Of a stretch of 64,000 bases of DNA, positions 23,281 to 59,012 are shown one piece after another. Positions within the stretch are counted from its first letter, which is position 1. Every line of letters begins with the position of its first letter. The notes beneath the pieces were generated by a model, which was not told the DNA's origin, ran no database searches, and saw only the letters and a program-made list of their open reading frames with translations. The position numbers were made by a program, and so were the translations under genes. Source of the DNA: Watersipora subatra (lineage: Eukaryota; Bryozoa; Gymnolaemata; Cheilostomatida; Watersiporidae); the NCBI RefSeq assembly GCF_963576615.1, contig NC_088717.1, positions 1,203,001-1,267,000 on the forward strand, read 5' to 3'.

Positions 23281-23288
23281 GGCTTTGC
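23281..23288 (+). repeat. Left target-site duplication of the giant MULE
   Basis: GGCTTTGC lies flush with the left terminal inverted repeat and is repeated exactly at 41,983-41,990, flush with the right one. An 8-bp duplication is within the 8-11 bp range known for Mutator-like elements. Confidence 0.88.
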
Positions 23289-23345
23289 GGTGACAGGTCT
23301 ATGTTCCGCACGCCCTATGTTCCGCAAGGCCCTATGTTCCGCACT
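23289..23345 (+). repeat. Left terminal inverted repeat of the giant MULE
   Basis: GACAGG then three tandem 16-17 bp units: TCTATGTTCCGCAC, GCCCTATGTTCCGCAA and GGCCCTATGTTCCGCA. It pairs with 41,926-41,982 reversed, with about five differences and one one-base gap. Confidence 0.88.
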
Positions 23346-23689
23346 TTTCCGCAAAATCGGATAAAATTTCTGAAAAGGACAGACAACTTCTAAAGCAAAT
23401 GCAATTATTGCTGTTTAAATTAAAACCGTCGTTGTGAAATCACGCCGTTGGGAAAATACAAACCGCTCTGCTGAACTTGAGAGAAAATAAAAAGATCTGA
23501 CGAATGAACGTTCACTAAAAATTAGTAGTGATAATACACGAATTATCAAATTAGAATACGCAAAAAAACCATCTTTTTCAGTCATTTTTATTTTAAAGTA
23601 ATATAGATAAATTCAAAGGCTACTTCATTTTTTTATTTAATTATAGACAAGCGTTCATGTAAGCCTACATTTCTAATTATAAAAGCCAT

Positions 23690-24880
23690 AAACTCTATAT
23701 ATCTCACTCCATAACAATATTAACATAATCATGTAAGCCTATGTTACGTACTCTGTAATATTATACAATTTTTCTTCTAGGCGTAATGTTCCACCATATG
23801 ATATTGTATGCCAAGAAAACCGATGCTCTACACTAAATGATATAGTAAATAAACATAATCATGAGGCTATGTTCCTCACTCAATTATAATACTGTATAAA
23901 TATAATCATGAGGTTTATACTCCTCACTCAACTATATTATAAATAAAATCATTAGGGCCAAAGTTCCTCATTCGATTATATTATAAATATAGTAATAAGG
24001 GCCTATATTCTTAACTCTATTATATTATAAATATAATCATGAGGGCCTATGTTCATCACCCTAATATATTATAAATATAATCGTGATGGCCTATGGTCTA
24101 CACTCTGTTATAAAGATAACCCTGATGGCCTGTGTCCTTCATTCTATTAGCATAAAAATAAAAACCGTGAAAGGCCTATGTTCCTCACTATACTTTATTA
24201 TAAATATAATTATGTTATATTATAAATATTTTATTAGTTAAATTTTTTCTATTATTAGCTATGTATAGTTACGTATATTATAAACATAATATGTTTCTCA
24301 TTTTATTATAATATAAACATAATCATGAGAGTTTTTGTTCGTCACTCTATTTTATTATAAATGTAACAATGTTGTATTATATATATTTTATTAGTTAAAT
24401 TATTTATATTATCAGCTGTATATAGTTATGTATATTATAAAATAATATGTTTTTCATTTTATTATATTATAAATGTAATCATGAGGGTCTCTGTTCCTCA
24501 CTCTATCATGTTATAAATATAATAATGAAGGCCTATGTTCCTCATTCAATTATAATATAAATACAATAATGAAAGACTATGTTCCTCACTCTATTTTATT
24601 ATAACTATAACAATATTATATTTTTAATATTTTATTACCTAAATTAGTTATATTATTACTAGTTACGTATATAGTTACTCACTCATAACTATATATAGTT
24701 ATTTATATTATAAATATAATATGTCCCTCATTCTATTATAATATAAATATAATCATGAAGGTCTCTGTTTCTCACTCTATTTTATTATAAATATAATAAT
24801 GAGGGCCTATGTCCCTCACTCAATTATAATATAATTATAATCTTGAGGGCTTATGTTCCTCACTCGATATTGTACAACGT
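23690..24880. repeat. Left subterminal array, degenerate part
   Basis: Roughly 40-50 bp units alternating the motif GGCCTATGTTCCTCACTC with AT-rich ATTATATTATAAATATAATC spacers. The motif is a diverged copy of the terminal unit, and the array runs in the same orientation as the left end. Confidence 0.85.
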
Positions 24881-25560
24881 ACTCGCTTGAGCCTATGTTC
24901 CTCACTCGCTATATTACGATATAGGTATTCACTAGGGCCTAAATTCCTAACTCCATAACGAGCATACTACACTTGCTTGGGCCTATGCTCCTCACTCAAG
25001 ATTGCGCAATATACTCAAAGGGCCTATACTCCTCACTTCATAATGAGCATATTATAATCCCTTGGGTCTATGTTCCTCACTCGAAATTGGGCAATATAAT
25101 TAAAGGGCCTATATTCCTCACTTCATAATGAGCATATTTCATTTGCTTGGGTCTATGTTCCTCACTTGAGATTGCGCAATATACACAAAGGGCCTATGTT
25201 CCTCACATCATAATGAGCATATTTTACTTGCTTGGGTCTATGTTCCTCACTTGAGATTGCGCAATATACACAAAGGGCCTATATTCCTCACATCATAACG
25301 AGCATATTTTACTTGCTTGGGCCTATGTTCCTCACTCAAGACTGCGCAATATAATCAAAGGGCCTATACTCCTCACGTCATAATGAGCATGTTATACTCA
25401 CTTGGGTCTATGTTCCTCACTCAAGATTGCGCAATATACTCAAAGGGCCTATATTCCTCACTTCATATTGGGCAATATACTCCCTTGGGCCTAGGTTTCT
25501 CACTCGATTGCTTGGGCTTATAATCCTCAATTGGTAATGCGGAACATGCTCAAAGAGGCT
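24880..25560. repeat. Left subterminal array, 84-bp higher-order part
   Basis: About eight units. Each carries two copies of the terminal-like motif: CTTGGGCCTATGTTCCTCAC before a GATTGCGCAATATAC spacer and AAGGGCCTATATTCCTCAC before a CATAATGAGCATATTTTAC spacer. The same unit in reverse complement forms the array at 39,775-40,945. Confidence 0.92.
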
Positions 25561-26090
25561 ATGTTAGTCACTCAATCCTGATATAAATACAATCAGTAGG
25601 ATCTGTGTTCTTCATTCTGTTATAGCATGAATAGTCATATGGCCGAAGTTTTTCCTTGATATTGCATGCTAGTCTTGCTAGATCATATAAAGCTCTTAAG
25701 ATCTCATAAAGTCAGACACGGCCATTTTTGGCATGATTGTGAGGCGCAGCACATTGGAATGCTCCCTCGCATACTTTACAGCCTAGATGTGAACTTTTGC
25801 TATCATTTATGCTGCTTTAGGCAGCACTTGGCACCAACTATCACTGAATGAGGTTTCATCCTTGTCATGTAATGGATTGAAAAATTATTAAATATCAAAC
25901 CTGGTGTGATAACCATAATTTGACATCAAAAACTGATTTGTGATCAATTGCAAAAATCTTCTGAAGTTTTTGACACATGACATTATTGTTCAGCAAGCTC
26001 ATATCTCTACTACCCTTCTACTAAAAATATGTACTGTTTTGTTTTTTAGGACCAAGTTTAATGATTCTGTGAGGTTTGAAAGAAGACTAC
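25561..26090. other. Interior MULE sequence, no gene recognised
   Basis: Transition from the left array to the cargo region. Short open frames at 25,666-25,851 and 25,940-26,176 on the plus strand show no family resemblance. Confidence 0.4.
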
Positions 26091-26093
26091 CAC

Positions 26094-27636
26094 CTGTGAC
26101 GCGCGGAACTGTGACGCGTGGGACAAAAATAACACTACGAAAAATCCAGAATTTCTCTACGTTTTGTAGTATTTAGACAACAAATTGTCATGATTTGGAG
26201 TCACAACATCTACCCATATACATGTGGTCAACCAACTAATAATTTAAAATTAGTATATATTATACTTATTTTATTTAACCGTGAATTATAAGACACATAC
26301 GATTCAAAGATTGTGAAACTTTTATGCAGTAAACAATTTTTTCTTAAAATCGTCATATTCTGCCGTTATCATTTTCTCATTTTTTAGTAAAAAGTACCAC
26401 AGTGACCTGATAGTTACCCCTGGTGCAATAACTGGAGATACTTTAAGAGGAAAGTTCATCTGGGTGGTTCTTTTGTCGTTGGGGTTTGGCTGCATGAACT
26501 TCTTGCGTGCACTGTGCATGTACTTTATAGTTCAGCTACTTTCATTGGCCTTTGCAATGAGAATTTCTCCCGTGTTGACTTCAGAGTCATAGGCCAATGC
26601 GACCAGCATTTGTGGTGAAAACTCCATTAATGTTTGTGAAGTATCTCTTGTGGTAACTTCTTGATTAGGTTCGCTGCTCTGTGTGTGTGGAATTGGCTGC
26701 CAGGTGGGATCAATCAATCAGAGCAACATAACTATTTTTTAATTGCAATGTGATGGCACGATCAAATGCCATGAATTAAAGGCACCATGGACCAGGGTTC
26801 TTTGCACATTTGCGCAGTTTCAGTAATCTTATCTTTTGAGATAGAGAATATCTTTATTGGTTTCGCTGATTTGGAAGTTATTGTTGTTGCAGCTTTCGCA
26901 AATGACTGCTGAGTTTACGACATACTTTTTTCCGATACACTGCCATTAGCACCTGTTGTTTGATGCTTTTCCTCAATACCATCTATTACACCTTCGCCAT
27001 GCGATGTGATTTTTGTAATCATACATTAAAAACACACATTCAGTTCAAAGATTACCTCACAATTTGACGGGCATCACGCCAAGTGTTTGTATCAGTAGGG
27101 TAATATTGACCAACTCCATGTTTTGAGTTCGAAACATCGTAAATTAATTCTAATTTTTTATTTCTCTCAAGGAAACTGGCTTTTTTGCCTTGGAATATCC
27201 AGCGATGTTTTCCCATGCAAGGTATCAAAATGAAATCTCAAACAAAGGCAGACATCGTCATATTATTAAAATTGTTCGGCGTGTCACAAATACTTCCATG
27301 TGCCCATAAAACCGAAACTATAGCTATATTTTCAGCTAATTAGCAAGTTTGGCTGGTCAAACTCGCCAATTCTCGCCAAATTTCGTTTTATAGATAAAAG
27401 ATTTTTACCTCAGATAGCTTAGGAAGAACAGGCTGCAACTAAATGCACTAAAATTGTGACACGCGGAACAAGCTATTCTTTGCTCACGCGAATGGTAAAA
27501 AAAAGTTGCATTTGTTAGGAAAAAACACCTAAGCTAAAATCTACTTTTGTATTGATTATAAAAGAAAAGCAAAATTTATTTCAGAATGAATAGCAAAATT
27601 TTAAGAAAGATGACCTATTGTGCCGCCCGTCACACA
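26094..27636. mobile_element. Possible nested DNA element inside the giant MULE
   Basis: The left edge reads TGTGACGCGCGGAAC and TGTGACGCGTGGGACAAA in tandem. The right edge reads TTGTGCCGCCCGTCACA, an imperfect reverse complement, and TTGTGACACGCGGAACAA occurs internally near 27,455. I see no convincing target duplication. It encloses the unidentified minus-strand ORF at 26,322-26,717. Confidence 0.35.
26322..26717 (-). pseudogene. Unidentified coding fragment in MULE interior, interrupted once
   Basis: Two minus-strand open frames lie in the same frame, separated by a single TGA, and together span about 130 codons. Recognisable stretches are FSPQMLVALAYDSEVNTGE and YMHSARKKFMQPNPNDK. The region has a mixed hydrophobic/charged composition like a small globular domain and is not low complexity. 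It vaguely resembles C-terminal accessory domains in some transposon proteins (a VAVAYD...GEV...FMHP...WP pattern), but I cannot assign a family. No convincing splice sites join it to anything else. Confidence 0.35.
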
Positions 27637-27639
27637 CCA

Positions 27640-29120
27640 TACCAGAAAAATCTACTTGCATACCCCATATCATCATGAGAGATTATTTCATTATAAAAAC
27701 TTTCTTGTTTCTGTATGTCTGAACATGTTTACTCACTAATTGACAGAAAATTATGATCACAAAAAAGTAAAAAAAATTGCCTATGTGTGTGACCCTATGT
27801 TTGGCTCTGCCCAGTCGGATTTTTCTTGCTTGTTCTCGCGTAAAACAACTCGCTGTTGCTCACTGGGGTGAGCCATGCTGAAACTGACAATTCAGTTATG
27901 TATACTGTATACAAAAAAAAAACCTTTTTTCTGGCATTATACAAAACATGCCTTTATAAATTACCTCAAGACTCGAATTTTGGAGTAATACATTTATACT
28001 CTTTCCTTTTAGAATACAAAAACCTGTGGTGAAACCTTATGATGCTCAAGTTAATCAATAACTTTTGGGAACTTGGGTTTGGGAAAGTTCAGGAAATTCA
28101 ATCTTATTGCATTCTAACCATAGCGTGATGAGGTATTCCAAGTAGTGATGAGATTTTGAATTTAGCGATGTATAATGTATTTGTGTTTACTTGCTACCAA
28201 GCCAGCAACAGCGCATTTTAAGCAGCTTTGGAAAAATTTGCAACTGACCAAAGAGGTGCAGTTTATCTTACAACTACCAGCAAGTATGTTTGGGGCCTAT
28301 GCTTATGTGATGTTAGGCCTATTATAAATGTAGGTTATTCAGGGAGTCCTGTTTGTCATTCTACTCTAATTCAACTTTGCTTATGCAGGCTCCCTGGGTG
28401 GTGTTCATAAAGCTGAAAGATCATATTTCACATCAGAAGGTTATGCTCGCAGCAACAATAAATATGTCGTATGTTTCAGCCAACTCATACTCACTCAGGC
28501 TCTGTAACTCTGAGTCTGATCATCAGGGACCACCGAGAAAGGAGATGGCTGTAGATAGCCGTTTTCTTATGCCTATGGTGTTTTTATAAAAGCACCTATA
28601 CTGATCATCCCACTGAACACGTAGCCAGCAGAATAAATCAGGCTTATGGGGGAATATGGGCACTAATTCAGGACTGACAACTGCCAGCTTATCAACCTGA
28701 GAATTGTTATTCACTTTTTTAGTTTTTCTTGTGCCCAGCAGCAGTTGAGCATAAGTTATGTTGTGACATTATTATTTGTGTTCATAAAAATTAAGGCTAT
28801 TGGAGGGTATGTCAGAAAAGTGTCTTATTGCAGCCACATTTATATACATGTAGTCGTAAACATTTGCTCCGTTTGATTGTCTGACTTAATAATTTAAGTC
28901 AGAAGTTTAAGTTCTTAAAATAATGTTTTTACTTTGATAAGGTTTATCATCACCGCTATGTACAATATCTTTAACATACCATGAAATTTTTAGTAAGTGT
29001 TTGTCTCAACACACAAAGTAATGACATTACATGAGGTCGAGTTTTTCAAAACATTCTCTTTTTGCAAATTAAAATAAAAAGGCAAGTAAAAATAATAAAG
29101 CATTAAGGCTTTACTGTATA
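27640..29120. other. Interior MULE sequence, no gene recognised
   Basis: AT-rich, with short open frames on both strands around 28,228-28,714 that mirror each other. By analogy with the intact gene, upstream exons of the decayed transposase copy would be expected here, but I could not recognise FLYWCH or the first DDE block. Confidence 0.35.
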
Positions 29121-29126
29121 CATTTG

Positions 29127-31012
29127 TAGATGCTCAAGGTAGTCAACGGCACTGAAGAATTCAGTGCCTTTGAGGTTGTTTGCGACTTTGAGATCAGTCT
29201 GCACGAAGCAATAAAAGCAGCAGGACCCAATGTAGAAGTATGTGGGTGCTATTTCCACACCACCCAAAGTATTTCTTGAAAGGTTGCAGCTTTTGGTTTG
29301 AAATTGGCATACAATAAAGATTGTAATGTACTAGAGATAGTACAAACACTCTCAAGTATAGGATCTTTTTCGCCACATCACATTGAGTAAGTTGTATTAA
29401 ATTAATATGATTATTGTAAGGTAGATTTTTGTTGTTATACAATTTTATTAATTTCATTTGAATATTATTTGACATGATAAACATTTGAACAAAAGCTGAT
29501 CAGCAATTGTGCGCATTAAAAAGTTATTTAAAAGTTAATACACCTGGTTATCAAAAAATGGTGGTGATAGGACTAACGATCAAATCAAGAGTGGAAAGTA
29601 TTTTACTGATTAATAAGCAAACTACAGTAGAAGTTGTTTAATGCTATAGTAATCAATGCAGTTCTATGCCTAGAAGATTAGCTCTACATAGAGTATTTGG
29701 TTAATAGAATCTTACAAAAATATATGAAATGAACGCTTACATTAGTATAAATGGCAATTCATACAAGTGGATAGGCATTTTTAAGGCAAAAATTGTATTA
29801 TTATAAGTATTACTCATGTATAAGTTCATCCCGCTATTCCAGAATATTTTAGAAGCACTATAACTGTATCGATTGTTGCTATCCGAAAAGAAATATAGCT
29901 TTCAAAAGTTTTTTTATTCGATATGATAAATAGAGTTCATCGGCATGTTTTATACGAGGTTTTGGTTGACTCACTTATGATATTGTTTGTGAATGGATCA
30001 CATGCTAAAACAAAAGTTAAGCATTGCCTGTTCTCAATTGGGTGTGAGCTGCTCAGGAGGTAGTAAAAAAACCAACAGTGCATATCTATAGTCTATTTAG
30101 AATTTACAGTTGGAATATTTTGCCTAATGTTTTCCGAATATATTACTTGTTAAACTTAAAACCGATCAGTAGTAGTTCAGCATAACATTAGCGCCTGCCA
30201 TATTATGATTGAAAGTGATGTACTAAGCATGTTCAGTAGAAATATATATGGTATCTTCGCTGATATTTGATACTGGTACTTCTGTGAAATAGCTTTAACA
30301 CTTATATGCTGAACTATCATTAATATGAGTGTTTGTGAATCCGTAGACAAATGCATGCTTCGTCGCCATTAAATTTGCTAATTGGCTTATTTGCTATTTG
30401 CTATTTATGAAAAGGTTTCAATAATAACGGCTTTTGCTGGAAAGCCTTTCGTCTTCAACAACCATGAACAATTGTTTTTTATTTATCCACATTGCTCGTG
30501 CCATCAAGATTTTGTTAATTAGTAACTATGGATAGTATGAACACGAGCTATATGGATAAGAATTGATTTTCATATTTAAAAATTTTTTTTTTTAATATTT
30601 TACTGCATATGTGCATATAAAATTTTATGTAGACAACAGTGCGAATGCGCAGTCGTCAGTATTTAGGCTAAGATCCTAAAAGGCTAGTGAGCTAACTGCA
30701 ATCTGCTGTAAATCAGAAACAAGCTTCCACAAAGTTAAAATAAAAACTGTATGCGATTTTCATCCAAAATTTTGGGTTGAAAAAGATAATTCGTATAGCT
30801 TAATCATATTATAAGCTTATTCAGCAAAGTGTTTTTCCTTAATGCCTAGCCCGGAACAGTCATTTCAATGCATGGTTGGAAAAAGCACCCTTCGATATAG
30901 CTTCTCATTTCATGTTTAGAGGACGAAGAAGTATTGTATAAACAACAAGCCGCAGCAGCTGCTGAATATGGGAACTATCATTGTAATCTACTTTCTTTGG
31001 CAGACTTTGTGT
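29127..31012 (+). pseudogene. Decayed duplicate of the MULE transposase gene (exons 5 and 7 plus introns)
   Basis: 29,131-29,390 is a diverged copy of the transposase exon at 37,031-37,299: MLKVVNGTEEFSAFEVVCDF and then CGCYFHTTQS, with stops in what follows. The downstream intron sequence also aligns (GCTGATCAGCA... and the start of the donor region). 30,590-31,012 matches 38,583-39,000, including the acceptor GCCTAG, CACCCTTCGATATAGCTTC and the CCGCAGCAGCTGCTGAA region. Exon 6 between them is not recognisable. This is therefore a partial duplication inside the same element rather than a second insertion. Confidence 0.8.
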
Positions 31013-31045
31013 GACATAATGATTAATTTGTATTGCTGAGTGAGT

Positions 31046-31090
31046 ATAAATTGTGTCATAGAGCAATAATTGCTCTATGACACAATTTAT
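31046..31090. other. Perfect 45-bp hairpin
   Basis: Two 22-base arms (left begins ATAAATTGTGTCATAGAG) are perfect reverse complements around a single A at 31,068. It lies between the decayed transposase copy and the P2X7-like relic. It could form a strong cruciform; I see no RNA gene context. Confidence 0.9.
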
Positions 31091-31491
31091 GCTTAATACT
31101 TAAAGATGTAGTTGCGTCAAAAATGAAATTAGGACCCATAAAAGGCTAAAACATCAGCTACAATTTGATGCCATTTCTGTCTTTGTAGACCAACCCTGTC
31201 CAGAGATATATGCGTTTGAATGAGGCCCTCTTTTAAAAAGCTCACGTTCCAGGGGATGCCTATTTCGTGACGTCACAAGCAAGGTATCTGAAACGAAACC
31301 ACGAGCAATAAATATGAGGTCGATTCGTTAGCCAATCATGCGTGCGAAATTTTTATATAGGCCGTAATAAATGTTATCACTCGTAAAACGCGTTGTCTGT
31401 GATCTCGAAGATTCTCATCGTTAGAGAATTCATTCTCATCGTTACTGATTCAACGCGTTTCAACAATTACTAAGTTATACATAGTTTTAAA

Positions 31492-32195
31492 ATGGCTTCA
31501 AGTTCGAGCGACCGCTACTCAGAGTTATCTGAGCAACTTTTAGTAAAAGATTAGAGTAGACAGCCTATGGCCAAAGCTGACAGGCGTCAGCAGCTGACAG
31601 GCGTCAACTATTTTTTATAGTCATAAAGACATATACTAATTAATAAAATGATAATTCTTTGCTATCTCCAATCATCGTTTCATAGCTTATCTGCCGTTTT
31701 ACCTAGCTATAATATTTTTTCGAATTTTCTTTGGTAAATTAGAGTCATGATTACAAATTATTTTCACTCGTAGGAAGTGGGTAAAATCGATTGATCATTG
31801 CAAATCTTTAATTTCCAGAACCAAAGCTTCGAATCGTTGGCGTGGCGTACTTGTGCTTTTATTAAATGTTTATTCGTTTTTAAAATTACACTCGCAATCT
31901 ATTTATCTCCCAATTTGGAAGCTGTCAATAGATACGCTTTAGAATGACATATCTATGAATGACATATTTATTGCATCTACTTTGTTTACATTTACTTGTT
32001 TTACTGATTACAGAATGTTTATGTCGTCCCACCAGCCGAAGAAGCTTTGTCAGTGTGGAAACTGCCATAAAGGAGAAAGCGAGACTTGAATGCGTGTTGG
32101 ATGATGTTTTGTTTGAGTTTGTTGCAGTAGATGAATTTGTCTTATTGTATCAGCTAATACTATGTGAGTGGCCACGACTTGATGAATATTTTTAA
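31492..32195 (+). pseudogene. Relic of a P2X7-tail-domain gene inside the giant MULE
   Basis: The layout resembles the intact gene at 42,763. A short ATG exon-like frame (MASSSSDRYSELSEQLLVKD) at 31,492 is followed about 0.5 kb later by an acceptor TTACAG at 32,012 and NVYVVPPAEEA, comparable to VYVPRPVEEW. After a frame change comes LCQCGNCHKGESET, comparable to WCGCGRCQAWP. The Cys-x-Cys-x2-Cys signature is retained but the frame is broken. No third exon is recognisable. The call rests on one motif plus layout. Confidence 0.45.
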
Positions 32196-32637
32196 TAAAA
32201 GCTTTATACCGAGATGAAAATATTTTTGCTTGTAAAAATTATATAATAAAATAATATTGTTGAAGATAATGCAAAACATGATTTGCAGAATATTGTAGTG
32301 AATCGGATATGGTATATGGGTGTCCGCAGAACTGGAGAATGTGAGTTCAAATTCAGTTTGCAGCAGACTTCTCATCCTTAAAACTCTATCCCTGTCTATA
32401 TTATTTTCAAAGAGGTGGCTTGCTTATTTCACTTATTTAGTATTCGGTAAGAATACTAGTAAGAAACTAGTACGTAGGCAATAGGTAATAGGCGACATAA
32501 TGTGGGCGGGGCTTATGGGAGGCTGTATATCGTTTATATGGGTAGCTGCAGAACTGAGCTGATACAAAGACCGCGTTCTACATAAAGTGACTTGACAGAA
32601 TTACCGTAGACCGGTAGAATTGGTAGTCGGTACCCAA

Positions 32638-35600
32638 ATGTTTACACAACATTTGGAGAAAGTGAGTAGAACAAATTTTCAATTTTCGTTATTTGAGACC
32701 TTTTAAACATTCATAATAATGCATCTGTAGCAGGATTTTTCAGCAAATATTTTCACAAATACACTTCACGCATTCAATAAAACCATGTCTAATGTTCTTA
32801 CGTGTCTGTTTTATCGTCATTGTAATGCTGTCACTTTTAGCAGTGATATCTTATAACTTACCGTAAAAAATCGCTAAACTTTTCAACCTTAGCTCGAATG
32901 AGTACATATCATTGTCTGATAATCATGATGAGCCTGTTGGTTACCTGTGATAATCGAAAAGTGCTTCAAAAATTATTTTCGAAGTATTGGGTCACATGAT
33001 CAGATTGCGACTTGACGATTAGTCCAAGCCGAAACAAAACTGTAAAGTAGCAGAGCATCTATATTTGATACGGGGTCTTCGGTAAAACCCAAAGTGTTTG
33101 TCATAAACTAGTGCTACATTAAGTTTTATATTGAGCTTTTTATTGCATTCTCAATTCACGTTTTTTTAATTTAATTTACTCCAAATTTAGGGTAAAAATT
33201 TACTGTACTCCAATTTCAAAAATAATTTCATGTATTCTTGTGTTAAAATTTTAGCCCATACATGTACTTATTGATCCTTATATTCAGTCCTCCTTTACAG
33301 CGAAAAGTGAGGGAAACACTAGTTCAGTATTGGTCAGTACAGCAATTTGATATGGTTTCTAGGGACAAGCCATTCGCGGAAACAGAGGTGGTTATGTGTT
33401 AATATACGATGGCTATCGATACCAGCGTAACCGCAACCTCGTGAGCTCTACTCGTTGGAGATGCTGGCTTCAGTGTGGGGCATGGATAATGACTCAGCGA
33501 TACTCTGTCTCCCGTGAAGGTGATTTTGTTAAGGTGTATGCCACAGAAGACCATAGCCATCTTCCCAATGAAGGCAAAATAAGGCATGATAAGCAAAGAC
33601 AGATTCTAGAGAAGTTGGTTTTATTGAACCCAATTGATACGCTGAAAAGGACATACGCAAAAGAGGCTGTACAGCATGCCAAATTCCCTGAGTATGGCAC
33701 TGTTTCTAGTGTGCTGAAGAGAGCAAGGTGGGTTGAGGCTGCTACTGACACGTTAGTTTAGTAACGTGGATAACTAATAACTAGTTAACACTTAATAATA
33801 ATAACAATATTGAACTGTATGGGCGATCACCATTTTTTGCAGTGTCGAGAAATTGTTGGGCTACTCCATGTTAAATAAACAAATCGCTGAATTCAGAAGA
33901 ATTTAGTTTAGTTAGTGAAGCTTAATACAATTGATGGAATAAAATATATATTATTCTTTTCTCAGATGGCAATGTGCATTTAACAAAGCTACCATAATCT
34001 AAGAATAACATTAAAAACACACCTAGCTCGCAAGTTTGTAATGAGGGTTGAAATCAGGGTATTATACCTTTGAATTAACAATGGTGAACTTTTCAATCCT
34101 GACTCATTACTTGTTATTAATTTTCATAGTGTTCAGCCTATTCTGAAGTCTGCCTATTCTACATTATGCAATATTGTGATTGCTCATCATTTTTTACAGT
34201 TTTTATTTAAGTTTGCTTTTAACAGGTCAAGCAACCTCCCTAAAATCCCAAAACTGCTGGACGAAGTCCAGATACCACTAGAGTGGCAATGTACCCATGA
34301 TAACCGGCCATTTATGTTTTACCAAGTAAGTATAATTCTAAAAATATAATTCTTTATGTCCTTGCAGTTACTTTCAAAAACGTGGTATCTAACCCAAGGC
34401 ATTGTTATAATAAAATATTTTAACAATGGTAAGTGAGTCAACTATCCACCAGACAAAAATAGTATAGTTGTAATTTTTAGTGAGTTAATGAAGGCGTGTT
34501 CTATTACTATTGAAATTACTCATCTCAAATGCAAAGTTTTAACTGTTAATTGTCAAATGGCATTTTGTATAGCTGTTAGTTTCAATCTAATTACTTTTCA
34601 TTTATAGAACAACAAAACTGGAATATTGATTTTCGCCACACAAGAAAGCCTTGACATTGCCAGGAGTTCGCAGACCATCTACATTGATGGAACTTTTAAA
34701 GCCGCACCATTTCCATATCGGCAGATTGTTTCTATCCATGCCATTGTTGCCGATACAGTGGTGCCTACAATATTCTGTTTGTTGGCTTCAAAAAGTACAA
34801 CACTGTATAAGGAGGTAGTATTCTTTGAATAACAGTCTCTTGGAGATAAGCAATCTTGATTACCAACTTCTACATTGTCTAGTATACATAGTTACATACT
34901 AGTGTACATAGTTACATACTAGTGTACATAGTTACATACTAGTGTATATCATTACATACTAGTGTACATAGTTACATACTAGTGTACATAGTTACATACT
35001 AGTGTATATCGTTACATACTAGTGTATATAGTTACATACTAGTGTACATAGTTACATACTAGTGTACATAGTTACATACTAGTGTATATCATTACATACT
35101 AGTGTACATAGTTACATACTAGTGTACATAGTTACATACTAGTGTATATCGTTACATACTAGTGTATATAGTTACATACTAGTGTACATAGTTACATACT
35201 AGTGTACATAGTTACATACTAGTGTATATCGTTACATACTAGTGTACATAGTTACATACTAGTGTATATAGTTACATACTAGTGTACATAGTTACATACT
35301 AGTGTACATAGTTACATACTAGTGTATATCGTTACATACTAGTGTATATAGTTACATACTAGTGTATATAAGAGGGCCAATGTTACAAAATGAGCTTCAT
35401 GGTGAATCTGATGATATCGAGTTTTAATAAATAAAAATCATTCAGTATAGTAAACACTTCTATAACTTAAATCTTTACGCTATTTGGAATTTATGTGAAG
35501 TTTTTGCTTCGCACACCATAAAAAAATATAACGTAGAGAGTCAAGTCGGGTGAGTTCTCAGATTATCTTCGAATGGCAGCACATCTCGCCACACTTGCAA

Positions 35601-38600
35601 ACGAACAAACCGAATGCATTACTATTACATATGTATAGCTTCTGTGACATTCTAAATTGTCGAGATAAATCGTCAGATGTGTCGACAAAACTGAGGATAA
35701 GGTAGCTGCGCAATTATTCAGAAATACTTGAGGGGGATCGATTGGTGCAGGTGTTACAGTGTCAATCTACCAATCTGAATGTCACGAGTTTTAGTACCAC
35801 CGAAAGGTATATTTTATACTAACTTTGACCCCTGCATACAGATAGACTACGAACAGGTAGTACTGCTAGTTTTATAGTAAAAATATATTTTTTTGCTTTG
35901 CTTACTTTTAGATGTCTGAAACATTTGCTATTAGTTTCACTTTGTTGAATAGGCTTTGCTGTTTAGAAAAAATAAGCAAATCGTTGTAAATGAGCATTGT
36001 CGCTGCAAACCAATAATACTGCTGACAAATTAAAATGTTGTTTTTTGTATGACTAAGGGGTGAGTTTGGGAAGATATTGGAATGGATTAGGCAATATACA
36101 TGTAGTTTACTATTCTTATAACGTAAAATCTCTATTATGTAAAGGTTCCTGGAAGCGATTATTTACGTTGTAGGCACACGCCCTATATGTTTTAATCTAC
36201 AGAGTTCATCATTGATTTCTTAAATATATTTGAGGTATTACTGCCTGCATGGTTATAAAACGCTGCATTATGTACTGAATCAACGAGATCTTTTTAAATT
36301 TTCATGAGGCTTCTGAAGACCGTAAGCCTGATTGATCGATGTTTGACTCTTCATTACGTGTACTGGACTATCCGCCTAGTACAATATAGTCCAACTACTA
36401 TGTCCCACTAACCGTCACCGGAACCACAGTTCTATACAGTCACGTGAAAATTAAATGACTATCCTGATTAAAACACATTAAACAATTAAAAAAAGCAAAT
36501 AATTTAGTGGTTTTATTTATTATATTGAAATTGAATCTTATTAAAAACAATAACTTGTTGCTTCAGATTAGCTTATGCTGATGATAACAGCCCGAGTGTT
36601 TGATTTAAAAAGTGTCTTTAGTAATAATATTATTATTTTCTAGTAAATATTACTAGAGACACTGTATTACAAATCACTAAATTATGTACATGTACTCCTA
36701 ATGGAAATGAAAGCCCGTTGGCCAATTATTTTTAGACCGCATCAGCTTATTAGTCAATGGATAAGCACAGAGGGTTCAATCCTTTAGAAAGCTTCTTACA
36801 CTTATCGCGCTCAAGCGGCTCTGATGAATAACTCCTAGCAAAAGCTTCAGCAGTGTTGAATAATTGCTAACCATCTTATACTTATTACACAATATTGCCT
36901 ATCATAAAATCTAAGCTAAATGTGCCCTACAATGTATGGTCGCTAATTATTAATAATTATACCATGTTAAAAGTTTTTTGTAATTATTCCAAATTGCTGC
37001 CTGAATTTGAATGACTTTATAAATTTGTAGATGCTCAAGGTTGTCAAGGGCACTGAAGAAATGAATGCTCTGGAGGTTGTTTGTGATTTCGAGATTAGTC
37101 TCCACGAAGCGGTAAAATCAGCATGGCCCAATGTAGCAATATGTGGGTGCTATTTCCACTTCACCCAGAGTGTTTCTCGAAAGGTGGCAGCGCTTGGTCT
37201 GAAATCCGCATACCAGAAAGATTGTAATGTACAAGATATTGTACAAAAGCTATCAAGTATGGGTTTCCTTCCACCACATCACGTGATCGGGGCATTTGAG
37301 TGAGTTGTATTAAATTAGCATGACTGTTTAATGAAGATTTTTATTGTTATATATGTTTATTTATTTCATTTGAAATTCCTATAGTAAAAACGTGGTCTGC
37401 CTTAACATGATAATCATTTGAACAGTTGAAACTGGGTTGTGAAATGTATATATCCTTGGATAGTTTTCTCAAGTTAAACACCTTTATTAGACAAAGTCCA
37501 GGCAACAACTGTTACAGGTGCGATGACTAATTATGCAATGAACTGGCTTATTAAGATATAAATTACCTAAACATACAAGTAGGAGACAATAATGATGTAA
37601 GGTCACAGAGAAAGGGTTATAGTACCATTTTCAACATGAACAAATGCTGATCAGCAGATGTGTGCATTAAAAATTGGTTTAAAAGCAAATAGGCCTGTTT
37701 TCTGAAATATGGCATTGATAGGATTAACCATCACTTTATTACTAACAAATATATTGGATGAAACCTTTCATCTGGCTTCTTCAAAAATAATATAACTTAT
37801 AAGTATAATATAACTTCAGTGTAAATTCAAAGCAACCAAAAAATATGAGCTACCAATTGCCAGGAAACAGTTTTACAAAGTACATATTTTGCAAGAGAGC
37901 AAATGCAGCAAACGTTTGAGTTCGCCACCTATAAATCCAACCAAACATCTCATAGTATGATTTCCACCATGCTTCCTCGATGACATCTGAATCCTTAATT
38001 AATGTTTTCTCATTTCTTATTGTAGTAGCTTAAAGAGCTCAGTAGCTGTAAGGGAGGCGGCGAAACATTTCCCAGCCATGGAGATATTACTAGCCTATTT
38101 CCATGATACCTTTATACACGGAGTCATTCCAATCAGTGTATGGAACGTATATTTTCGAGACATAAGCACACGGACTAACAACTATGTGGAAGGTGAATAT
38201 AAAAAGCTGAAACAAATTACAATATCAAAAAACTCAGACATCGTCCTTTACACAAAATTAGTGATGCTTGGAAATTCGGCTTCCCCAGTTATTGCATATT
38301 GTCTACATTTGTGGAATATGTTGAATCTTGTTAACAAAAATATCTGTCAGCAAAACAATTCTCGCCAGCAGTATGCAGGCAGATTTTTATTCTTAAGACT
38401 ATATTCTATAATGATACATCATGTGCCAATATCCTTTGATTCTGATTCATATTATTTTGCTGTTTTAACATATTGAAAACCAGCAAAGTTTATTGACACT
38501 CAATTTATAATTTTGTCTTCCTCAAAGTAATTCAATAAAAAAGAGAAGCGTTCAAAAAGCCGCTGCCTTCACTACAAACTTTAAGTATTTTACTGCATAT

Positions 38601-39027
38601 GTGCATATCAAACATTACGTAGACGACAGTGCGAATGTGCAGTCCCCAGTATTTAGGCTAAGATCCTAAAAGGCTCGTGAGCATACAGCAATCTGCTGTA
38701 AATCAGAAATAAGCTTCCACAAAAAAAATAAAAGCTGTATGCAATTTTTATCCGAAATTTTGGATTAAAAAAGATCATTCGCATAGCTTAATCATACTAT
38801 GAGTTTATTCAGCAGTGTTTGTCTTTTATGCCTAGCCTGGAACAGCCATTTCAATGACGTCGTTGGAAGGAAGCACCCTTCGATATGGCTTCTCATTTCA
38901 TGTCTAAAAGATGAAGAAGTGTTGTATAAACAACGAGCCGCAGCTGCTGAAAAAGGTTTGTCTTTTTACGAAAAAATATATGAACGATCATTATAATCTA
39001 CCTTCTTTGGCAAACCATATATATATG

Positions 39028-39083
<56 letters not shown>

Positions 39084-39224
39084 CTAAACGCTTTTCAAAT
39101 GCATTTTTATTTATATGCAATAATTTTCATTTCAGGGAAACTGATAGTTCGCAGGCGCAAAAAGTGGCAGAAGTTAGAAGAACGAATCCAAAAACTCAAG
39201 AGACAGAAAGCGAACAATAACTAG
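32638..39224 (+). CDS. FLYWCH-MULE transposase of the giant element, spliced
   Basis: Predicted DNA transposase of the Phantom-like MULE group. Exons with consensus sites and matching phases are 33363-33727, 34226-34325, 34608-34814, 37031-37299, 38026-about 38357 (donor uncertain), 38836-38955 and 39136-39224 (stop TAG). A candidate start exon, MFTQHLEK, is 32638-32661 (phase fits, low certainty). The FLYWCH zinc finger is near the N-terminus: RGGYVLIYDGYRYQ, RWRCWLQCGAW and EDHSHLP. The MULE catalytic core has the first Asp in TIYIDGTFKAAP, the second Asp in VVCDFEISLHEA with the C-x-x-x-H of CGCYFHF, and Glu in TNNYVEGEYKKLK. The C-terminus has the usual VGRKHPSIW block and a basic tail (RRRKKWQKLEERIQKLKRQK). 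No stop interrupts the joined exons I could resolve. A 20-bp minisatellite sits in the 2.2-kb intron. Confidence 0.82.
32738..33160. mobile_element. Foldback element, copy 3, middle part only
   Basis: Closely matches the middle of the copies at 19,113 and 43,884 (CACGCATTCAATAAAACC, TGTCTGATAATCATGATG, GGGTCTTCGGTAAAACCC, AGTGTTTGTCATAAACTAG). It lacks both inverted-repeat ends. It lies in the first intron of the transposase gene. Confidence 0.88.
34877..35370. repeat. 20-bp minisatellite in the transposase intron
   Basis: About 24 near-identical units of CATAGTTACATACTAGTGTA with ACATAG/ATATCG/ATATAG variants that alternate in a regular order, which suggests expansion as a higher-order unit. 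Very homogeneous, so recent. Confidence 0.95.
35371..37020. other. Long intron of the transposase gene
   Basis: AT-rich. A SINE-like stretch near 35,730-35,880 (GATTGGTGCAGG, then ACGAGTTTTAGTACC) and another near 36,740 are too degenerate to call. No coding potential was recognised. Confidence 0.4.
39014..39082. repeat. TA dinucleotide repeat
   Basis: About 60 bases of nearly uninterrupted TA in the last intron of the transposase gene. Confidence 0.95.
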
Positions 39225-39774
39225 CTATTGGCGAGCGATAAAATATGCTGTGAATGAAATAATTTAAAATTACCCGCAGTCACTTCATAAAAATCTATTG
39301 TATATTGTATTTATCGATTCAGTTGATTGTCAGAGAACACTTTTTGTATGTAAAATTATTTATTAAAAAATAGTTCATACCTGTTGGGGCTCTCAGATGA
39401 AATTGCTAGAACAAGATAAAATCCTAAATATATCGGCTATATAATATCCAAATAATCCGTTGGTTACTTGGCTGTTTTGTTTATGGTAGATGTTTAAAAC
39501 ACATTTTATTATTATAGTTACATAATATATTATTACATCGATTAGCTCATTTCTTTTATTTAAATTAGGCAAGTGAAGAGTAAAACATGTAAAGTAGAAA
39601 GAGGAGATATAGAAACTTTTTTAACAAGCACTTGTTGCAATTTATGGCACTAATGTCACATGAGGATATTTTACCAGTTTCCAATAAATAAATTACTGGA
39701 CAATGTCATCATTTAGTTGCTAGATATAACTACATGTACTTGGTTCTGTTGCTGCTTTTTTGAAATACCTATTA

Positions 39775-40945
39775 AGTAAGGAATATAGGCCCTTTGAGTA
39801 TATTGTGCAATCTTAAGTGAGGAACATAGGCCCAAGCAAGTAAAATATGCTCATTATGATGTGAGGAATATAGGCCCTTTGTGTATATTGCGCAATATTG
39901 AGTGAGGAACATAGACTCAAGCAAGTAAAATATGCTCATTATGATGTGAGGAACATAGGCCCTTTGTGTATATTGCGCAATATTGAGTGAGGAACATAGG
40001 CCCAAGCAAGTAAAATATGCTCGTTATGATGTGAGGAATATAGGCCCTTTGTTTATATTGCGCAATCTCAAGTGAAGAACATAGGCCCAAGCAAGTAAAA
40101 TGTGCTCGTTATGATGTGAGGAATATAGGCCCTTTGTGTATATTGCGCAATCTCAAGTGAGGAACATAGGCCCAAGCAAGTAAAATATGCTCGTTATGAT
40201 GTGAGGAATATAGGCCCTTTGTGTATATTGCGCAATCTCAAGTGAGGAACATAGGCCCAAGCAAGTAAAATATGCTCGTTATGATGTGAGGAATATAGGC
40301 CCTTTGTGTATATTGCGCAATATTGAGTGAGGAACATAGGCCCAAGCAAGTAAAATATGCTCGTTATGATGTGAGGAATATAGGCCCTTTGAATATATTG
40401 CGCAATCTCAAGTGAGGAACATCGACCCAAGCAAGTAAAATATGCTCATTATGATGTGAGGAATATAGGCCTTTTGTGTATATTGCGCAATCTCAAGTGA
40501 GGAACATAGACCCAAGCAAGTAAAATATGCTCGTTATGATGCGAGGAATATAGGCCCTTTGAATATATTGCGCAATCTCAAGTGAGGAACATAGACCCAA
40601 GCAAGTAAAATATGCTCATTATGATGTGAGGAACATAGGCCCTTTAATTATATTGCGCAATCTCAAGTGAGGAACATAGGCCCAAGCAAGTAAAATATGC
40701 TCGTTATGATGTGAGGAATATAGGCCCTTTGAATATATTGCGCAATCTCAAGTGAGGAACATAGGCCCAAGCAAGTAAAATATGCTCATTATGATGTGAG
40801 GAACATAGGCCCTTTAATTATATTGCGCAATCTCAAGTGAGGAACATAGGCCCAAGCAAGTAAAATATGCTCATTATGATGTGAGGAATATAGGCCCTTT
40901 GTGTATATTGCGCAATATCAAGTGAGGAACATAGGCCGAAGCGAG
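39775..40945. repeat. Right subterminal array, 84-bp higher-order part
   Basis: About 14 units of GAGGAATATAGGCCC, TTTGTGTATATTGCGCAATC, AAGTGAGGAACATAGGCCC and AAGCAAGTAAAATATGCTCG joined in that order. It is the reverse complement of the array at 24,880-25,560. Minus-strand open frames such as MGLCSSLNIAQYTQRAY are repeat artefacts. Confidence 0.95.
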
Positions 40946-41700
40946 TGTATTGTACAATATCGAGTGAGGCCCTTTGACTATATTGCGCAATATGAAATGG
41001 AAATATAGGCCATCATGGTTATTTTTATAAAATAATTGAGTGAGAAACATGGTCCTCATGATGATTTTTATACTATTATTGTGTGAGAAACTTAGGCTTC
41101 AATCATTATATTTATATTATTATCGAGTGAGAAATATAGGTCCTCATGATTATATTTGTAGTTAGTTAATCTTCATTGAAATGATATTAATATCAAATAT
41201 AATATTATTTGCGCTTCTATTTGCAGGCAAAAATAAATATCTTCAATTTTATTTCATGAGAAGGAAACTCCCCATCTGTAGGTGAGATTGTCAGATGTAA
41301 ATAACGAAACGGTTATGTAGAGAGGGTAATTATAAGTAGCAAAGTAAAATCATACTGGCAGCAAACAGAAATTGCTTCACGGCAAGACTTATATGCAGAG
41401 TTTATATACAAGACAATACAGAATATATTGTAATTATAAATTTAATCACATTATATTGACTAAAATAATTACAAATATAGAATTATATTTGTAATCTTTT
41501 TGAGTGAGAAACATATACCTTGCTGAGTGCATTGCAAAATATTATGTGATGAACATCAGCCCTTGCGAGTATACTGCGCAATATTAAATGAGGAGCATAG
41601 GCCTCCATGATTTTATAGATGTTATTATTCAGTGAGGAAGATATGCTCTGATGATTTCATTAACAATCAGCGAGTAATACACGTTTTTTGATTATATTTA
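40946..41700. repeat. Right subterminal array, degenerate part
   Basis: Irregular units retaining GAGGAACATAGGCC-like or GAGAAACATAG-like motifs between AT-rich spacers. It mirrors the degenerate left array at 23,690-24,880. Confidence 0.75.
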
Positions 41701-41925
41701 CAAAATCAAATAATCAGAAAACAGGCTTTAGTTTTTTTTAATTTAATTATAATACAATCGCTTGGACAACTTATTACTTATACAGTACGCATTCCTACAT
41801 AAACTTGTTTATTGTATTCTTGCGTGAGAAACATCGGCAGAGCTAATGTGCTGAGACGAATCATCAGTCACTTTTACGTCCGCAACGTCTAGACAGCAAT
41901 AAATTTACTGATTGAGCCGTAGCGA

Positions 41926-41982
41926 TTTGCGGAACATAGGGCCTTGCGGAACATAGGGCCTGCGGAACATAGGGCTGTCCCC
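41926..41982 (-). repeat. Right terminal inverted repeat of the giant MULE
   Basis: Three tandem units ending TGCGGAACATAGGGC and CTGTCCCC. The target duplication GGCTTTGC follows at 41,983-41,990. Confidence 0.88.
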
Positions 41983-42762
41983 GGCTTTGCAGGCTATTGA
42001 CTCGCCTTAGCATCACGTCATCCGGTTTTAACCTTGATGAAATTGTCGATGATTTAACGAAGCACGTTGATCCAAGGCTATTGCAACTGCAGTCGCGCAT
42101 GTGGAAGAAATTGGCTGCCTTTAGAAGCGAATGTATTTTAAATGTTTCGGCCAAATAACTAACGGTATGACGGTCATATCAAATAACGAGAATCCAAGTC
42201 AAGCTTTAGACATCTGATCAGACTTAAGTATCGGCGAAATTAGTTCGGCAAGTTGACTTGCTAATCATCTTCATTGTTCTCATGCGTACTAAACTGACTA
42301 AGGTTACTGAATGAACCGCGGCCGACACGACTTTCCTGTTTATTTCAATGCGTCATGTAATATTGCACCGTTAAGACATTAAACCATAACTGCCACGATC
42401 AGTGTTTTTGTTTTTTTCATATGTAAATCAGACATGCTGATTCCGATTTTGTAATCAAAATAAAAATTGGTCCACTAGTTTTCAAAGTCATTTTTGTTTT
42501 TGAAGGCTTTTTACAGCGATTCAATATCGGGGTCGAAAACGACACTTCAAGCCCCGCCCATAAACATGTGACGTAACCTAGCTTTTTATGGACGCAAGTC
42601 GGAGATGTTTAGTCGACTGAGAAACAAATAGCTCTGCGAGCTTACCAATGAAAATCGACGTTACAGATGTCAAATCTCCAAAGGTCAAGGTCAGGTTTAC
42701 ATAATTTTTCATAAATTTTTATCGAGACGCTCGGAAATCGCTTTATACAGATAACGCTCTCA

Positions 42763-43883: not shown

Positions 43884-44870
43884 ACTCTCTTTGCCTATAG
43901 CAATCAGCAAGACAGTTGATAGATCAGCAAGATAGTTATTAAAGGTTGACTTGCAACAAAATTCACATTACAATTATTTGATATCAAAAGATTCACCATG
44001 TCTTACTCTGTTGTAGGTGCAAAATATGTGGAAAGGTGATTACAAGCTCTTTAAAAGCTCAAAAACCAACAGAAAATCGTAGCCACACCAGATCGCTGTA
44101 GTTTGGATTCCCTTTCCAAAGCGGTTCAAATGTGATGTAGTTCTGAGCGATGGTTTCTGTTTAGACTTTCTTGCAACCTTATTCGTTGAAATATTTTCAC
44201 AGATATACTTCACGCATTCAATAAAACTGTCTATTGTTCTTACGAGTCTGTTTTATCGTCATTGTAATGCTGTCACTTTTAGCACTGATATATTATAACT
44301 TACCATAAAAAATCATTGAACTTTTTAACCTTAGCTCGAAGGAGTACATATCATTGTCCGATAATCATGACGAGTCCGTTGGTCACCTGTGATATTCAAA
44401 GTGCTGCAAAAATTATTTGCGAAGTATTGGGTCACATGATCAGATTACGACTTGACGATTGAATAATGCCGAAACAAAACCGTAAAGTAGTAAGCATCTA
44501 TATTTGATAAGGGGTCTTCGGTAAAACCCGAAGTGTTTGTCATAAACTAGTACTACGATAAGCTTTATATTGAGTTTTTTATTGGCCTTTCAATTCACGT
44601 GAGAACATCATGTAACAAGACAATAACCAAATTTCATGGCTACGTCATCGAAATAAAGAGATTCCAATCTACGGCGGCTTTTCGTTTTTGAGCTTTTAAG
44701 AGCTTTTTATCACATTTCCACATATTTGGCACCTACAACACAACAGAGTAAGACACGGTGAATCTTTTGATACCAAATAACTGTTATGAGAATTTTATTG
44801 CAAATCAACCTTTAATAACTATCTTGCTGATCTATCAACTGTCTTGCTGATTGCTATAAGCAAAGAGAGT
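43884..44870. mobile_element. Foldback element, copy 2, with extended palindromic ends
   Basis: The inner 0.88 kb matches copy 1 at 19,113 end to end, including AAAGGTTGAC and its complement. Outside it, a further ~55 bp on each side is also perfectly or almost perfectly inverted (left ACTCTCTTTGCCTATAGC, right reversed ACTCTCTTTGCTTATAGC, with CAGCAAGACAGTTGATAG shared). Total inverted arms are about 190 bp. It carries no coding region and is nested in the TTAA element. Confidence 0.88.
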
Positions 44871-57194: not shown

Positions 57195-58475
57195 ACTGAT
57201 GTGCGCCCCTAGTAGCTGTAGAGCTCTACGGAGATGCACCCCTAGTAGCTGTAGAACTCTACTGAGGTGCACCCCTATTAGCTGTAGAGCTCTACTGATG
57301 TGCACCCCTAGTAGCTGTAGAGCTCTACAGAGGTGCACCTCTAGTAGCTGTAGAACTCTACTGAGGTGCACTCCTATTAGCTGTAGAGCTCTACTGAGGT
57401 GCACCCCTAGTAGCTGTAGAGCTCTACTGAGGTGGACCCCTATTAGCTGTAGAACTCTACTGAGGTGCACCCCTAGTAGCTGTAGAATTCTACTGATGAG
57501 CACCCCTAGTAGCTGTAGAACTCTACTGAGGTGCACCACTAGTAGCTGTAGAATTCTACTGAGGTGCACCCCTATTAGCTGTAGAGCTCTACTGATGTGC
57601 ACCCCTAGTAGCTGTAGAGCTCTACGGAGGTGCACCTCTAGTAGCTGTAGAACTCTACTGAGGTGCACTCCTATTAGCTGTAGAGCTTTACTAATGTGCA
57701 TCCCTAGTAGCTGTAGAGCTCTACTGAGGTGGACCCCTAGTAGCTGTAGAACTCTACTGGGGTGCACCCCTAGTAGCTGTAGAATTCTACTGAGGTGCAC
57801 CCCTAGTAGCTGTAGAACTCTACCGAGGCGCACTCCTAGTAGCTGTAGAATTCTACTGATGTGCACCCCTAGTAGCTGTAGAATTCTACTGAGGTGCACT
57901 CCTAGTAGCTGTAGAACTCTACTGAGGTGCACTCCTAGTAGCTGTAGAACTCTACTGATGTGCACCCTTAGTAGCTGTAGAACTCTACTGAGGTGCACTC
58001 CTAGTAGCTGTAGAACTCTACCGAGGCGCACTCCTAATAGCTGTAGAACTCTACTGAGGTGCACTCCTAGTAGCTGTAGTATTCTACTGAGGTGCACCCC
58101 TAGTAGCTGTAGAACTCTACTGAGGTGCACCCCTAGTAGCTGTAGAATTCTACTGAGGTGCACCCCTAGTAGCTGTAGAACTCTACCGAGGTGCACTCCT
58201 AGTAGCTGTAGAACTCTACTGATGAGCACCCCTAGTAGCTGTAGAACTCTACTGAGGTGCACTCCTAGTAGCTGTAGAACTCTACTGATGTGCACCCCTA
58301 GTAGCTGTAGAACTCTACCGAGGCGCACTCCTAGTAGCTGTAGTATTCTACTGAGGTGCACCCCTAGTAGCTGTAGAACTCTACTGAGGTGCACCCCTAG
58401 TAGCTGTAGAACTCTACTGAGGTGCTCCCCTAGTAGCTGTAGAACTCTACCGAGGCGCACTCCTAGTAGCTGTTA
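57195..58475. repeat. 33-bp minisatellite, open on both strands
   Basis: About 38 units of GTGCACCCCTAGTAGCTGTA followed by GAACTCTACTGAG. Because 33 is a multiple of three and the unit lacks stops in one frame on each strand, it reads as 443 codons (plus, CTPSSCRTLLR repeats) and 425 codons (minus, VHLSRVLQLLG repeats). No splice-consistent flanking exon or family match supports translation. Confidence 0.95.
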
Positions 58476-59010: not shown

Positions 59011-59012
59011 GT

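Follow-up and report, generated by a model that had tools for sequence, protein, structure and literature searches.

A probable single insertion of an unusually large FLYWCH MULE, with mirrored arrays of its own end motif, in the bryozoan Watersipora subatra

Muta1, a FLYWCH MULE of Aedes aegypti, has been described as a 3,198-bp element with two exons, 145-bp terminal inverted repeats (TIRs) and nine repeats, in which the ends combine a 10-bp terminal motif with 12-bp repeats separated by 3-4-bp spacers and the target-site duplications (TSDs) measure 8-9 bp (PMC5225508). It has been classed as a type 2 Foldback element with an intron-containing DDE transposase gene, and a FLYWCH finger was reported in 13 of 14 sister families, Muta6 being the one without it (PMC5225508). 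The length given for Muta5 is 3,496 bp. Tm1-A of Meloidogyne carries a Phantom-type transposase within Foldback-like TIRs; its description gives a length of 2,593 bp, a 9-bp TSD, one to nine repeats per TIR and asymmetric 7-bp tips (PMC3169594). For Phantom, group 20 of Dupeyron et al. 2019, TSDs are 8-10 bp where given, FLYWCH occurs in some members, and the tabulated TIRs are either 18-613 bp long or none (PMC6446971). VANDAL21 with VANC21 is an Arabidopsis MULE that has a separate VANC gene (PMC5735166).

Here we analyzed a 64,000-bp window of the W. subatra genome, whose numbering is used throughout. An element of 18,694 bp (23289-41982) is bordered by two exact 8-bp copies of GGCTTTGC, and its 55-bp TIRs are identical at 51 of 55 positions (Table 1). 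As a word, GGCTTTGC is not rare per se, occurring four times in the window against a mean of 1.44 in shuffles, so that its weight as evidence comes from standing directly against the inverted ends. When 78,419 inverted-arm offsets were scanned for pairs of 55-bp arms with at least 75% identity and exact 8-bp flanking repeats, 40 pairs qualified; one was formed by the element ends, and the remaining 39 all used TTGCGCAA, a palindrome within the 85-bp satellite unit. Removal of the element and one duplication would leave the joined site GAAGCA-GGCTTTGC-AGGCTATTG. At the left end, a search for bacterial promoters, a method not applicable to a eukaryote, returned two sites versus 1.3 in shuffles. 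The first-pass annotation of this DNA had described an exact 8-bp duplication flush with both ends and inverted termini with about five differences over some 56 bases, and both descriptions were confirmed; the TSD and the matched TIRs also support its reading of one structurally whole insertion.

Table 1. Coordinates of the element's features in the window
Feature	Position	Strand	Basis
Left TSD, GGCTTTGC	23281..23288	.	
Left TIR: 9-bp tip, then three 13-bp motifs, 3-4-bp spacers	23289..23343	+	
Left 44-bp motif arrays (23849-24210, 24446-24865)	23849..24865	+	
Left 85-bp array, 6.8 units, two motifs per unit	24934..25505	+	
Exon D region of the decayed second copy of the transposase; one in-frame stop	29113..29582	+	
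Exon F region of that decayed copy plus the adjoining intron; one stop	30591..31005	+	
Candidate first exon of the coding sequence, 8 codons with donor GTGAGT	32638..32661	+	inspection
Dispersed genomic repeat, other copies 19371-19795 and 44189-44600	32736..33161	+	
Transposase exon A, FLYWCH finger	33363..33727	+	
Transposase exon B	34226..34325	+	
Transposase exon C with YIDGTF, candidate for the first catalytic D	34608..34814	+	residue by inspection
20-bp minisatellite, 24.6 units, intron between exons C and D	34879..35370	.	
Transposase exon D with CDFE, candidate for the second catalytic D	37031..37299	+	
Transposase exon E with NNYVE at the junction, candidate for the catalytic E	38026..38192	+	
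Transposase exon F	38836..38955	+	
Transposase exon G with stop codon	39136..39224	+	
Right 85-bp array of 13.7 units with minus-strand motifs	39779..40946	-	
Right 44-bp motif array, 3.6 units	41000..41157	-	
Right TIR	41928..41982	-	
Right TSD, GGCTTTGC	41983..41990	.	

By its domains, the length of its duplication and the plan of its ends, the element appears to match a FLYWCH (Phantom/Muta) MULE with Foldback-type ends. The exact 8-bp TSD falls within the 8-10 bp of FLYWCH-type MULEs, and the arms are long inverted ends made of tandem repeats, as in Foldback elements. The FLYWCH-MULE identity proposed earlier is thus supported by the FLYWCH and MULE domains and the TSD, the Phantom placement resting on domain content and end structure. 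Its size had been called unusual and is so beside the lengths published for Tm1-A, Muta1 and Muta5; we regard it as a variant, of unusual length, within a known family. Muta1 is the closest model among the elements compared: as in its description, there are a TSD of 8-9 bp, a short tip (9 bp here) with repeats (13 bp here) at 3-4-bp spacing, and an intron-containing transposase gene. Unlike the compact, two-exon Muta1 described, the present element adds to its three terminal repeats another 67 motif sites, spread over arms of roughly 2.3 kb; its gene has seven exons or more, and a second, dead copy of the transposase is also present. It shares with Tm1-A, as reported, a FLYWCH/MULE transposase and composite TIRs in which repeat number is variable and unequal between the ends (the repeats being of about 14 bp in Tm1-A), whereas the Tm1-A finger lacks its last histidine and the finger here is, by inspection, complete (C, C, H, H) (PMC3169594). 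TSD length and FLYWCH also link it to Phantom group 20, whose aphid members have a minisatellite after the transposase; long mirrored satellites of an end motif set it apart from that group as described (PMC6446971). A double-motif TIR pattern had no match in viral_contigs and genome_contigs, which says nothing on copy number because these collections hold viral, bacterial and archaeal DNA.

The mirror-image subterminal satellites noted at first pass are borne out: the 85-bp and 44-bp arrays of the two arms are inverted, the longest inverted pairs between the 85-bp arrays being about 90% complementary (25 longest of 94 pairs), and the 44-bp units lie outward of the 85-bp units. The 85-bp units, compared over six of seven left starts and 13 right units, have diverged and share variants between the arms. 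Going beyond that annotation, we found that these satellites are arrays of the element's own end motif. With a weight matrix trained largely on the same sites that it later found, all 34 left sites at 12 bits lay on the plus strand and all 39 right sites on the minus strand, with none in the middle (25901-39299) and one elsewhere in the window; the reversed window gave none at 12 bits and eight at 10 bits. Moreover, the terminal 13-mer with up to two mismatches had 51 matches in the window (shuffle mean 0.72), all inside the element, comprising 22 on the left, all plus, and 29 on the right, all minus. Weaker matches (9 of 13 positions) in the wrong orientation numbered one in the left arm and two in the right. 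The terminal sites read TTCCGCA, with G in 6/6, and 65 of the 67 subterminal sites carry T at that position (TTCCTCA). Across much of both arms the motifs are spaced by 41-44 bp, or about four helical turns.

Three repeat types, the 44-bp unit and two half-units of the 85-bp repeat, have this motif in common. Their motif consensuses agreed at 16-18 of 19 positions, while their spacers aligned no better than shuffles (fractions 0.31, 0.76 and 0.97) and are unrelated. This retention in three contexts, together with the single motif polarity of each arm, argues against regarding everything beyond the TIRs as passive satellite that grew by slippage or unequal exchange and has no role in transposition or expression. 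That explanation nevertheless is a serious possibility, only a little short of an even chance. Within eight in-register left 44-bp units (of the 34 left sites, chosen by their 44-bp step, with no right units), motif conservation was 0.746 and spacer conservation 0.809; no motif constraint was seen in these units, so plain tandem duplication can account for motif persistence within the array, and the result counts against an array function. The arms are also unequal in their number of 85-bp units, and since the window contains many unrelated minisatellites, array growth may be a tendency of the host.

The spliced transposase gene proposed earlier stands as regards its seven exons and its domains; the first exon is still a candidate. 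The seven exons form one frame of 438 codons without a stop, and all inter-exon junctions are GT-AG. On the spliced 438 aa, the MULE domain (PF10551) scored 37 bits (E 4.6e-09, cut-off 27.6) and an N-terminal FLYWCH (PF04500) 28.1 bits (E 2.3e-06, cut-off 23.6); exon D alone fell under the PF10551 cut-off. Exons C, D and E provide a candidate D-D-E set. Matches to PF18086 (0.0083) and PF01610 (0.051) were below their own cut-offs and were disregarded, as was the lone match up to E 1 in a search of solved structures, a histone methyltransferase (E 0.18). None of five pattern stretches tried for transposase relatives in viral_contigs was confirmed. A strict donor pattern found no first exon; a looser one gave seven candidates in phase 0. 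One of the seven falls within the decayed exon D; 32638-32661 was tentatively favoured by inspection. The lack of a certain first exon, the dead second transposase copy and the divergence of the arrays would fit a relic with whole ends whose transposase has ceased to be made or to act, its apparent intactness being due to chance or lag. We consider such a relic possible but on the doubtful side, given the 438 stop-free codons over seven exons with canonical junctions and the exact TSD.

Interior cargo, claimed at first pass, was not borne out; a decayed partial second transposase copy occupies part of the interior instead. It was revealed by comparison with the transposase and by self-comparison of the interior (best 20 of 35 direct families, best 25 of 72 inverted pairs). 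Further interior sequence consists of introns, one minisatellite and a repeat that is dispersed in the genome, and many unrelated minisatellites are present in the window. A nested complete second element was rejected because no end-motif site scored in 25901-39299. A Pfam search of six frames of 25506-33362, up to E 0.5, matched no family, and no captured host gene or fragment was detected, a result that applies to Pfam-modelled genes with longer exons in that stretch and not to the non-exon part of 33363-39770; this too is a point beyond the first-pass annotation. The size of the element is in part accounted for by arrays, long introns, the dead partial copy and the dispersed repeat; about half of the interior lies beyond these components, with no gene detected there.

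Alternatively, the arms of the same transposon might offer their arrayed motifs to a protein with an anti-silencing or regulatory role, by analogy with the VANC arrays of Arabidopsis VANDAL MULEs. As in the published account of VANDAL21, a short motif is dense, uniformly oriented and built up by tandem repetition in non-coding parts of a MULE (PMC5735166), and all 18 ATTGCGCAAT words of the window fall within the arms. VANDAL21, however, is a plant element with a separate VANC gene and a motif not described in that account as an end repeat (PMC5735166). Pfam found no second gene in six frames of 25506-33362, and the motif here also serves as end repeat, which makes the transposase the first-choice binder; we therefore judge this reading unlikely. 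Large tandem arrays are prone to misassembly, yet two separate insertions or an assembly join mimicking one element are most improbable in view of the exact TSD flush with matched ends and of mirrored arrays with shared variants.

Thus, we consider it probable that the locus is a single complete insertion of a giant FLYWCH (Phantom/Muta) MULE with Foldback-style ends, whose arms act as extra transposase sites; its ends, TSD, motif arrays and open seven-exon transposase gene are directly observed. The transposase, of 438 aa together with a short first exon, would bind the CCTATGTTCCGCA motif through its FLYWCH finger, pair the ends, cut at the tips and insert with an 8-bp stagger, by analogy with Muta1. 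The terminal motif triplet, built like the Muta1 end, may be the cleavage-proximal binding unit. The arms would be expansions of the motif, with the fixed variant TTCCTCA in three unrelated spacer contexts, and most likely supply many extra putative transposase binding sites. Such sites could raise local transposase concentration, assist the pairing of ends separated by 18.7 kb, or govern expression from the arms. A more specific version, which we put forward tentatively as rather unlikely, posits two motif classes: a cleavage-proximal TTCCGCA triplet, and 67 variant sites, TTCCTCA for the most part, that form a directional platform. Many-fold occupancy of this platform by the element's own FLYWCH protein would keep a very long element paired or expressed, as an animal counterpart of VANC arrays.

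With a two-variant motif and a transposase gene, binding and excision are directly testable. The element indicates that a compact Muta-type end can expand into a satellite of directional motifs, kilobases long, without loss of structural wholeness, which bears on the birth of satellites from transposons and on the size limits of cut-and-paste elements.

The window (64,000 bp, 37% GC) contains an 18,694-bp segment enclosed by two copies of GGCTTTGC, and the two ends of this element, compared as terminal inverted repeats (TIRs), are identical at 51 of 55 positions. The exact 8-bp duplication described in the first-pass annotation is thus present at both ends, flanking matched 55-bp TIRs. We scanned 78,419 offsets for inverted 55-bp arms that were at least 75% identical and bordered by exact 8-bp repeats. 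Forty pairs passed, one of which is the element ends. The other 39 lie inside the 85-bp satellites and all carry TTGCGCAA, a palindrome belonging to the 85-bp unit. Because the element ends are the sole passing pair outside these satellites, the two ends belong together. The coordinates of the main features are as follows.

Positions of the element-related features and tandem repeats in the window
Feature	Position	Strand	Detail
Target-site duplication, left	23281-23288		GGCTTTGC, exact 8-bp copy
Target-site duplication, right	41983-41990		GGCTTTGC, exact 8-bp copy
Transposase exons	33363-33727, 34226-34325, 34608-34814, 37031-37299, 38026-38192, 38836-38955, 39136-39224	+	in-frame joining
Second transposase copy, piece 1	29113-29582		two-piece match to 37014-37733, 77-80%
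Second transposase copy, piece 2	30591-31005		two-piece match to 38580-39015, 85-87%
Dispersed repeat	32736-33161		in element; copies at 19371-19795 and 44189-44600
Minisatellite in element	34879-35370		20-bp
Minisatellite	16796-17266		23-bp units
Minisatellite	20994-21678		22-bp units
Minisatellite	57195-58473		33-bp units
Minisatellite	59012-59220		15-bp units
Minisatellite	60580-61259		18-bp units

Each TIR consists of a 9-bp tip (GGTGACAGG on the left, GGGGACAGC on the right) and, behind it, three copies of the 13-bp motif CCTATGTTCCGCA separated by 3-4-bp spacers; the outermost left copy starts with T. This plan is that of Muta1, a known FLYWCH-type MULE, for which PMC5225508 describes 12-bp repeats, set 3-4 bp apart, behind a terminal motif of 10 bp.

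The end motif is repeated further inward, beyond the TIRs. All 51 matches to the 13-mer in the window (≤2 mismatches; shuffle mean 0.72) fall inside the element, with 22 in the left arm, all on the plus strand, and 29 in the right arm, all on the minus strand. A 19-bp weight matrix built from 66 seed sites in the window was applied with a 12-bit threshold. It yielded 34 sites on the left (all plus), 39 on the right (all minus), none in 25901-39299 and one elsewhere in the window; in the reversed window no site reached 12 bits, and 8 reached 10 bits. These site counts are partly circular, as training was largely on the same sites; the circularity does not extend to the polarity or to the empty middle. 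A simple match search requiring ≥9/13 added a few weaker sites in left-arm gaps, and wrong-orientation matches at this level numbered one in the left arm and two in the right. Motifs are spaced 16-17 bp apart at the tips and mostly 44 bp apart in the outer left arrays; within the 85-bp arrays, steps of 44 bp and of 41 bp take turns. The G of TTCCGCA occurs in 6/6 terminal sites; at the same position, subterminal sites have T in 65/67, G in 1/67 and A in 1/67. The sequence ATTGCGCAAT, which may resemble a bZIP (C/EBP) site, occurs 18 times in the window, always in the arms (4 left, 14 right).

Motif consensuses of the 44-bp unit and of both halves of the 85-bp unit agree at 16-18 of 19 positions, whereas the spacer consensuses of these three repeat types align with one another no better than shuffles. 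The same motif within unrelated repeat backgrounds argues that the motif, rather than the repeat unit, was retained. However, in eight in-register left 44-bp units, conservation is lower in the motif (0.746) than in the spacer (0.809). The terminal motif agrees with the subterminal consensuses at 13-14 of 19 positions, with mismatches mostly in the motif flanks. Mean identity of the 85-bp units is 0.870 in the left arm (6 units), 0.939 in the right arm (13 units) and 0.895 between arms, and the nearest neighbour of the six left units is a right unit in two cases, a left unit in two and a tie in two. Variants are thus common to both arms, suggesting that these share an origin or have exchanged sequence.

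The spliced transposase gene noted earlier was recovered as seven exons in one frame (438 codons plus stop), with GT-AG at 6/6 introns between them. Its product matches PF10551 (MULE, 4.6e-09) and PF04500 (FLYWCH, 2.3e-06), both above the curated Pfam cut-offs, and by inspection candidate catalytic residues lie in YIDGTF, CDFE and NNYVEAWN. Junctions were set by hand from frame, consensus splice sites and known MULE motifs, that of exons 5/6 by restoring the NNYVEAWN...HPSIW stretch. To supply a start codon, a further small exon is required upstream, tentatively 32638-32661 (8 codons, donor GTGAGT; picked among 7 candidates).

The interior cargo proposed in the first-pass annotation was not borne out: no Pfam family was found up to E 0.5 in six frames of 25506-33362. 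Self-comparison revealed instead a partial second transposase copy in the same orientation as the seven-exon gene, with two recognisable exons and one stop in each; neither self-comparison nor comparison with the transposase matched the remaining exons in this region. A whole nested element with recognisable ends is ruled out, since the middle (25901-39299) has no scored end motif; a better fit is duplication within the element or recombination with a relative. Differences between the copies number 17/10/31 at the three codon positions, an excess at the third (p 0.002), and divide into 26.5 synonymous and 31.5 non-synonymous (dN/dS 0.26; Fisher p about 1e-5). Thus at least one lineage was constrained at the protein level for much of the separation. 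Adjoining intron pieces diverge by only about 11% and 16% excluding gaps, below synonymous sites, so no date for the split can be derived. The 20-bp minisatellite and the dispersed repeat also add length to the element. One outside copy of the latter is enclosed by a probable MITE-like repeat (44046-44700), with near-inverse ends, by eye, around CTTTAAAAGCTCAAAAAC.

In agreement with the earlier placement of NIT2 beside the element, the left flank encodes a carbon-nitrogen hydrolase on the minus strand (PF00795 matches of 5.1e-20 and 3.9e-07, each in its own frame). By inspection, we infer a splice donor at 23220 for its 5' UTR, and the element inserted some 60 bp upstream of this donor. Such a position close to where a gene starts is in line with the preference for genic sites that PMC5225508 suggests for Muta1. 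The plus-strand gene in the right flank has a P2RX7_C match of 25.3 bits, above the cut-off, and lower in a longer frame. These flanking genes, together with known taxonomic distributions, suggest an animal host. Joined without the element, the flanks read GAAGCA-GGCTTTGC-AGGCTATTG. A short plus-strand open frame, FNLDEIVDDLTKHVDPRLLQLQ... (42005-42158), adjoins the right target site and may be coding.

Elsewhere, minisatellites across the window make the host genome seem rich in tandem repeats. A 363-aa open frame (46682-47773, minus), some 5 kb to the right of the element, matches PF20700 (3e-39), a Mutator-like transposase of a different Pfam family. A Glyco_hydro_15-like match (PF00723, 1.6e-07) at 4845-5381 (minus) is perhaps a phosphorylase kinase subunit exon, and an open frame at 61885-62301 (plus) matches the NF-X1 zinc finger weakly, under the cut-off (PF01422, 0.0062).

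In its domains, target-site duplication and end plan the element conforms to the FLYWCH (Phantom/Muta) MULEs, with ends of the Foldback type. At 18,694 bp, the element compares with 2,593 bp for Tm1-A (PMC3169594) and 3,198 and 3,496 bp for Muta1 and Muta5 (PMC5225508), and Phantom TIRs reach 613 bp in a table of PMC6446971, as far as the available parts of these sources show. Kilobase-long mirrored arrays of an end motif had no description in the literature searched, a weak negative given that subscription papers were mostly outside its coverage. On sequence grounds, recent activity of the element is possible from its exact target-site duplication and open transposase, and the diverged arrays and dead second copy point to a long history.
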